NCBI RefSeq assembly: GCF_040786275.1
Contig: NZ_JBFMVT010000002.1
Location: forward strand, 3,782,001-3,846,000
Source: Buttiauxella gaviniae
GTDB lineage: Bacteria; Pseudomonadota; Gammaproteobacteria; Enterobacterales; Enterobacteriaceae
Direction: 5' to 3'
DNA: 64,000 bases
Of this stretch, positions 56,038 to 56,583 are shown piece after piece (positions within the stretch are counted from its first letter, which is position 1; each line of letters starts with the position of its first letter). The position numbers and the translations under genes are program-made. The notes below the pieces were generated by a model. It was not told the DNA's origin. It did not search any database and saw only the letters and a list, made by a program, of their open reading frames with translations.

Positions 56038-56067
56038 GACAGGAAATGGGGTTTTACCTCTAAAGGT

Positions 56068-56507
56068 GAGATCTTTAAGCTGCTGAGGTTTTCCGTTCAC
56101 CCAAGCGTTCGGCTTTTCCATGTAATTATTGCTAACGGTGAACGTGCCAGGGGAATGACGCCATTCCCCTGGCGACCCCGACGCCCGGCAAGTAAATCGC
56201 CGCTAAAGCGGTAAACCCCCGTTTTCCCCCAACATTCAGGGTCGTTCGCGACTCGTTCCCGACGGTCGCTCTCTCACGTGGTTCCCGACCACGTGACCCT
56301 GACTGAAGGGGAAAAACCGGGGCGATTTAAGCCGGGAACAAGGGCGTTGCTGCAAATTTCAGGAATATTGTCGCGTTGGCTTTGCTGCTAAATCTAAAGC
56401 GATGCCGTGCAAAAGTAATAACGCGCAGTGGAAACGAGGGTTTTGAGCCCGGCAAGTAAATCACCGTGCTTCCGGTGAACGGAAAACCTCTGCACTTTAC
56501 AGATCTC
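56068..56507. mobile_element. MITE-like non-coding element with 34-bp inverted repeats
   Basis: Left end (56068-56101) and right end (56474-56507) are inverted repeats: GAGATCT, ten variable bases, then a perfect 17-mer GAGGTTTTCCGTTCACC, mirrored at the right. Inside are an 11-bp perfect hairpin GCCAGGGGAAT / ATTCCCCTGGC (56146-56173) and a nested stem from CCCGGC (56184) to GCCGGG (56336). The nested stem contains TTTTCCCC/GGGGAAAA, CAGGGTC/GACCCTG and TCACGTGGT/ACCACGTGA pairs. The phrase GCCCGGCAAGTAAATC occurs twice (56183 and 56447). No open frame codes for a protein. Origin as a transposon-derived miniature element is an inference. Confidence 0.6.
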
Positions 56508-56556
56508 GCCCTAAAAGATTGCCAGAAGGAGAGAGGATCGCCCCCCTAATTTCACG

Positions 56557-56583
56557 TAAAGTTTCCCAACCCCATGCCGATAA
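56557..56583 (+). promoter_or_regulatory. FliA (sigma-28) promoter of tar-tap-cheRBYZ
   Basis: TAAAGTTT, 11-base spacer, GCCGATAA: identical to the FliA consensus. 31 bases before the tar ATG. Confidence 0.96.

Follow-up and report, generated by a model that had tools for sequence, protein, structure and literature searches.

The genome of Buttiauxella gaviniae carries, just upstream of a chemoreceptor gene, a 440-bp stretch packed with palindromes (positions 56068-56507 of the window, the whole 64,000-nucleotide stretch of DNA that we analysed), and this locus raises the question of whether it holds a mobile element, a structured RNA or DNA, or a fixed regulatory region of the gene beside it. 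A domain search of the neighbouring genes finds Spore Coat Protein U, a fimbrial-type domain, on one side of the element and TarH, HAMP and MCPsignal on the other. A sigma-28-like box (TAAAGTTT-N11-GCCGATAA, 56557-56583) lies ~50 bp downstream of the element and precedes the latter, tar-like gene, in agreement with the original prediction, which had put the element upstream of a tar FliA promoter. The same prediction had seen no coding frame, and the element indeed contains no ORF of 80 aa or more; its longest stop-free stretch is 64 codons.

We then compared the parts of the element with those first described. The 34-bp imperfect inverted termini of the original prediction are real as inverted repeats, pairing 56058-56101 with 56474-56517 over 44 nt at 82% complementarity (in a self-match, positions 407-440 of the element align with 1-34 at 88% identity on the minus strand), but they are subterminal and not transposon ends: in intact relatives the true end lies ~41 bp beyond the left terminus so defined. 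The left repeat (56068-56101, plus strand) and its right counterpart (56474-56507, minus strand) hold, in inverted orientation, both the GAGATCT motif and the perfect 17-mer GAGGTTTTCCGTTCACC (56085-56101 / 56474-56490) that had been reported. The outer hairpin of the arm spans 56094-56144 (stem CGTTCACC / GGTGAACG, with a variable 35-nt loop), and a perfect hairpin, GCCAGGGGAATG-ACGC-CATTCCCCTGGC, occupies 56146-56173; its stem (56146-56157 / 56162-56173) is present as claimed, at a length of 12 bp instead of 11. The multi-branch domain of the left arm (helices 3-10) follows at 56184-56336, comprising inverted repeat I2 and two small hairpins, in most cases with a TCCCG loop, and inverted-repeat analysis recovers the nested stem as a long stem at 56216-56243 / 56295-56322. 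The internal direct repeat GCCCGGCAAGTAAATCGCCG is found at the start of the branched domain (56183-56202, plus strand) and again at 56447-56466, with 19 of 20 bases alike; the second occurrence lies inside a rearranged remnant (56447-56473, plus strand) at the place of the right arm of other copies. The spacer between the two arms (56344-56446, plus strand) is common to copies L002 and L003, in which matches to the window element reach its positions 376 and 398. The 440 nt are strongly structured, as had been proposed, folding as RNA to -202.5 kcal/mol (z -10.6) and as DNA with z -9.4; neither fold is equalled by any of 100 shuffles.

Conservation as a single copy at the orthologous site, which the original prediction had singled out as the pattern of a fixed regulatory region, is the opposite of what we observed. 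The tar-like gene is present in all 12 genomes of the genus, and the element is absent beside it in 11 of 11 relatives (1.5 kb upstream, E up to 1e-3), five of which keep the same upstream gene at the empty site (L284, L285, L286, L288 and L290). Presence at the tar site is thus polymorphic, between species only. The case for fixed regulation of the tar-like gene by the element draws on its distance of ~50 bp from the sigma-28-like box; against it, a box of this kind is readable in all 11 upstream sequences lacking the element, and other copies lie elsewhere in the genome. We reject this reading on the strength of the empty sites and accord it only a very small probability. In L290, three CCCTCTCCC-GGGAGAGGG palindromes occupy the exact place of the window element, upstream of the tar-like gene.

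The checks suggested at the outset included searches for further copies, target-site duplications, and full-length transposons with matching ends. Further copies exist both in this genome and in relatives. By BLAST, the genome itself holds three long copies, namely the window copy and two others (94% identity over 376 bases and 90% over 398), together with several fragments. When 60 genomes including its own were searched with the window copy, 11 matched, these being its own and 10 of the 11 others of Buttiauxella; 0 of the 48 sampled genomes outside the genus did so. A full-length query gave matches, some of them weak, in 13 of 295 family genomes, which fall in 5 of the 154 genera covered; match numbers from these genome searches are lower bounds and count pieces, not copies. 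An exact-pattern scan of named genomes yielded 106 stretches, and the 80 of these that were listed belong to Buttiauxella species, Cedecea davisae, C. sulfonylureivorans, 'Enterobacteriaceae bacterium RIT693', and 'Enterobacter sp.' Ag1 and Cy-643. Among the five carriers searched outside Buttiauxella, RIT693 has the most matching pieces (at least 104, with 13 to 36 in the others). A distant blastn search of E. coli genomes, plasmids and phages gave no match at 1e-5, and viral contigs gave 0 matches for one exact pattern. The family therefore occurs in multiple dispersed copies, as a MITE does, and this repeat family of Buttiauxella, Cedecea and relatives appears to be unreported in the literature that we searched. 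Genomes G004 and G009 have in common a full-length copy with the same flanking sequence (L061 and L224); because these flanks are shared, at least one insertion probably predates the split between the two genomes.

Intact copies measure ~610-730 bp, and six copies of the family have a GC content of 51-57% versus 49.5% for the window. Over the 42 ends of 21 hand-picked copies, the end consensus is CTGTCTCTTATACACAACT, with the consensus base at positions 11, 12 and 17 present in only 21-22 of the 42. As given in the oligonucleotide tables of PMC3347997, the Tn5 mosaic end is CTGTCTCTTATACACATCT and the OE is CTGACTCTTATACACAAGT; the consensus shares 18 of 19 bases with the former and 17 of 19 with the latter. 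Around the matches to this end in G009 we examined 16 loci, 13 of which show a facing end pair around an element, two a single end (L214 and L223) and one an unrelated sequence (L226). Terminal inverted repeats with at most three mismatches per end are present in 39 of 66 candidate end pairs, a set that includes some chance pairs and was filtered by this mismatch limit at each end and a length below 760 bp. Removal of one duplicate flank pair left 38, and target-site duplications are found among them: 14 of the 38 carry duplications of 9-11 bp with at most one mismatch, against a mean of 1.2 and a maximum of 6 in 2000 shuffles of partners, and six carry exact duplications (five of 9 bp, one of 11 bp; null mean 0.2, maximum 2). 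The remaining 24 have no duplication by the criterion used.

The Nextera/Tn5 library adapter contains the same mosaic end, and identity of this kind is what would be seen if the Tn5-like ends were adapters left in the assemblies. The exact 19-bp mosaic end occurs only once in the loci examined, and on this count we reject an adapter artefact as the source of the ends; further, the ends vary (TATACACAACT, TAGTCACATCT) and lie mostly inside long contigs, next to the same interior in several assemblies and with target duplications. The probability that we leave to this explanation is negligible, the smallest of any considered here.

The flanks of the element also point to a preferred target. CTCTCC on the left or GGAGAG on the right is present in 23 of the 38 flank pairs and neither in 15, and these motifs are halves of a palindrome, CCTCTCCC-NNN-GGGAGAGG, that all 12 genomes contain, with site numbers ranging from 2 in the genome of the window through 44 in G009 to 85 in G011; the reversed pattern occurs 0 times in any of the 12. 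Because the flanks correspond to palindrome halves, the element appears often to have inserted into the loop of REP-like palindromes. The palindromes themselves are plentiful in some genomes of the genus and rare in others.

Several copies depart from the intact form. L187, L216 and L217 are short derivatives of 170, 257 and 283 bp that retain both Tn5-like ends, and exact target duplications flank L216 and L217; because two of the three carry such duplications, these minimal forms seem to have moved. L042 and L065, in two genomes of the genus, share an extra hairpin-rich insert of ~80 bases (ACAAAAATGTCAGGAACATTTTTGAACAACGC...) inside a hairpin of the right arm, which may be a nested small element, and split matches suggest the same insert in L043 and L221.

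Copies lacking one or both IS50-like ends are numerous, the window copy among them. Such copies would be at home in a scheme in which the core is a REPIN-like single-stranded unit moved by a HUH/RAYT transposase, the Tn5-like ends being a later or parallel acquisition, and the palindromic, near-invariant ends of the core (CCGTTCACC / GGTGAACGG) and its compensatory changes recall REPINs as far as PMC3116915 describes them. Against this scheme, copies with both ends show target duplications of 9-11 bp, the element is 610-730 bp in size, and some of the end-less copies sit at shared orthologous sites, as expected of old copies that have decayed. We consider a REPIN-like origin improbable, and return to a transposon with IS50-type ends.

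We then sought the transposase that might act on these ends. There is no transposase gene inside the element: in six copies the longest stop-free stretches run to 64-149 codons, compared with 464 aa for an IS50-type transposase. The stretch of 149 codons, in the full copy L218, lies inside the palindrome and looks like chance; the other five copies checked have 64-109. PF02281 was found neither in the 12 Buttiauxella genomes, that of the window among them, nor in six carrier genomes, one of them G009, in a search whose built-in controls were silent and which did find PF02281 in 7 of 295 family genomes. Likewise, the suggested search for a full-length transposon with matching ends found none in carriers, the nearest being an IS50-type IS of another genus. 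In this IS, from G172, a 464-aa transposase lies between ends CTGTCTCTTGATCACAAGT and CTTTCTCTTATACAG; the protein matches NF033590 (IS4 family, 517.7 bits) and Tnp_DNA_bind (58 bits), with DDE_Tnp_1 (22.4) and Dimer_Tnp_Tn5 (20.3) below their cut-offs, and it aligns with the Tn5 transposase 1muh at E 3.5e-80. A search with this transposase recovered the positive control, G172, and found a homologue in 0 of the 17 genomes covered, 12 from Buttiauxella and five from other carriers. Loci of PF01609 transposases in 11 genomes, checked for ends of the element, gave three weak (4-mismatch) matches in 16 loci. As to membership in the IS50 group, then, the 19-bp IS50-type ends are present and a cognate transposase was found in 0 of 17 host genomes; we infer from the ends that the mobiliser would be an IS50/Tn5-type transposase.

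The window copy (56065-56526, plus strand) consists of a left arm, the spacer, the remnant of a right arm and an inverted left-type end, and the outermost IS50-like ends are absent on both sides. In local alignment with the near-full copy L003 it is collinear over 56065-56461, with gaps of 1 bp and 2 bp, and beyond 56461 it has no counterpart to ~206 bp of the right arm of L003. At its right end, 56474-56526 match the left end of L002 in inverted orientation, with 90.6% identity over 53 bp, and this match stops ~22 bp short of the transposon end of L002; the inverted left end of L003 matches at 84.9%, and the right end of L003 over 24 bp only. Homology on the right thus runs to ~56526, only the last stretch being lost there. 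Because of this left-type sequence at the right, we do not read the element as a simple L003-like copy with a deleted right arm. It is a degenerate, rearranged relic from which most of the right arm and the outermost ends are gone, and it is presumably unable to move any longer.

The interior of intact copies is built of two inverted arms of ~270 bp, each with an outer hairpin, a 12-bp hairpin and a branched domain, and the full copy L117 (637 nt, in which no tRNA was found) folds to -328 kcal/mol (z -16.7; 0 of 20 shuffles as good). In an alignment of 26 left arms, 97.4% of 1713 cells pair versus 89.8% when shuffled, and 147 cells are doubly changed versus 46.3 in shuffles (0 of 500 reach 147) and 2-27 with partners slid, in a test that took its structure from the very alignment being tested and whose shuffle comparison is inflated by related sequences. 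Both-sided changes affect 22 of the 66 pairs. Helix 1 of this alignment (A1), the outer hairpin, is paired in 99.0% of cells, and helix 2, the 12-bp hairpin drawn one pair further out in the consensus, has both-sided changes in 9 of its 12 pairs. Further pair types do not exceed shuffles (36 versus 38.1), in keeping with few wobble forms.

Very low folding energies, the 22 pairs changed on both sides and the largely conserved loops of the small hairpins are also what would be expected if the interior were a structured non-coding RNA or mRNA-processing element riding on the transposon, its stems kept by selection on RNA. Selection on RNA from one strand should favour GU pairs on that strand, and the wobble counts bear on this point. 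Counting pairs predicted on both strands, in 99 sequences for the left arm and 76 for the right (in each case with the reference arm added to the 98 or 75 collected), we found GU in 17 + 25 cells (left + right), AC in 21 + 15, other mismatches in 62 + 72 and Watson-Crick pairs in 3947 + 3835; these counts mix orthologues and paralogues, and their cells are not independent events. Both these and the pairwise counts were made after removal of identical arms, of arms containing N and of those shorter than 85% of the query. With 42 GU and 36 AC cells among 7,782 Watson-Crick, the two are about equally rare, and this parity counts against the RNA reading. An apparent RNA-strand bias was rejected, as it depended on the strand folded: GU/AC was 50/25 for plus-predicted and 20/109 for minus-predicted pairs in the left arm, and 50/15 and 26/15 in the right, so that only both-strand pairs were kept. 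Further, the window copy has no sigma-70-like promoter and one terminator-like site versus 1.3 in shuffles, and Rfam gave no gathering-score match for the window or for four full-copy loci, the latter returning two hits below gathering score, one outside the element (E 0.034) and one inside it (E 0.55). An RNA function for the interior seems to us unlikely, if less so than a REPIN-like origin. Because wobble pairs are rare and strand-symmetric, these data suggest instead that hairpin pairing is kept at the DNA level; the symmetry argues against RNA and is no proof of a DNA mechanism.

The order in which paired changes arise was read from pairwise comparisons. In distant bins, both-sided changes number ~10 (left arm) and 12-14 (right arm) per comparison, and one-sided changes ~1-2 at larger distances, with 4.1 in one right-arm bin. 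Among bins at 87-98% identity, one-sided changes outnumber two-sided in six of eight (the exceptions being left 96 and right 87); because they exceed doubles among close pairs, one-sided intermediates evidently occur and are later compensated or lost. This is the pattern that sequential compensation in RNA would also give, and it fits selection or later correction better than double changes in single events. Copies at the same site in different species show 5 double, 3 single and 2 other changes in the left arm (five comparisons at four sites, summed over L168-L084, L168-L073, L031-L177, L048-L116 and L047-L090) and 4 double and 1 single in two right-arm comparisons; these sums leave aside L084-L073, which repeats a site, L068-L108 (5 double, 0 single), whose orthology is unclear, and other pairs missing from the alignments. 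Same-site copies thus contain compensated pairs, in small numbers to which gene conversion from other copies possibly contributed. With the long-range fold of four orthologous full copies, single changes exceed double in six of six comparisons (18 versus 3 for L168/L073), a result that depends on the pair set, L168/L073 giving 2 and 2 in the left arm with the arm-only set. Homogenisation between the two long arms of one copy was rejected as a source of pairing, self identity exceeding cross-copy identity in only 3 of 21 copies. At a site with conserved flanks that four Buttiauxella genomes have in common, the core of L077 (G009) is apparently in opposite orientation to that of L084, L168 and L073, as if inverted in place.

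Template switching in short hairpins is discussed in PMC8794818, where selection versus template switching is treated as an open matter in hairpin evolution. Both short-hairpin template switching and selection on folded DNA could contribute to the pairing kept in this family.

Taken together, we conclude that the window element is very probably the decayed remnant of a MITE, a non-autonomous element moving by cut and paste, within the IS50/Tn5 group of the IS4 family. The original proposal of a miniature transposable element is borne out, since the family has further copies, ends in inverted repeats, often carries target duplications and is missing from the orthologous site in relatives. A transposase of the Tn5 type, acting in trans and either lost from the hosts or only transiently arriving, would have bound the ends, excised the element and pasted copies into REP-like palindromes. 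One copy would have inserted between the Spore Coat Protein U-domain gene and the tar-like gene, and would later have lost both extremities along with the greater part of the right arm. Hairpin pairing is probably kept in DNA: short hairpins may be corrected on their own template, a folded form of the DNA may be under selection, or the two may act together. More tentatively, the interior may be a two-armed, cruciform-like folded DNA device whose pairing is actively kept in several genera, even in copies with decayed ends; we hold this to be possible, with the odds against it. If true, the device would represent a novel kind of structured cargo in a transposon, either working at the level of DNA or subject to a mutational process that corrects itself. 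Since the natural ends all but match the engineered Tn5 mosaic end, the family lends itself to direct trials with a well-studied transposase, and the arms (98 left, 75 right) form a large natural data set that could separate selection from replication template switching.

How does this family compare with known systems? It resembles IS50/Tn5 (IS4 family) in its terminal 19 bp, at the 18/19 and 17/19 bases given above for the mosaic end and OE, and in the 9-bp length of five of its six exact duplications, 9 bp being the length of the Tn5 target duplication. Unlike IS50/Tn5, it has a palindromic interior of 610-730 bp without a transposase gene, an apparent preference for REP-like palindromes, and ends slightly nearer the engineered mosaic end than the natural OE. 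Insertion into extragenic palindromes is shared with the REP-targeting IS elements of which PMC1525189 treats, the likeness being one of target type. With REPINs, in the terms of PMC3116915, the family shares palindromic structure, conserved ends and compensatory hairpin changes, and differs from them in its far larger size, DDE-type ends and target duplications. Finally, like the bacterial MITEs Correia, ERIC and QMITE as PMC10969869 presents them, its copies are short, non-coding, dispersed and strongly folding, with terminal inverted repeats and target duplications; they differ from those MITEs in being longer and not AT-rich, and in having two inverted multi-hairpin arms, extensive compensatory change and IS50-type ends. 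MITEs are a known class, and it is the type of end, the REP-like target and the strongly co-varying, two-armed interior that set this family apart as a variant.
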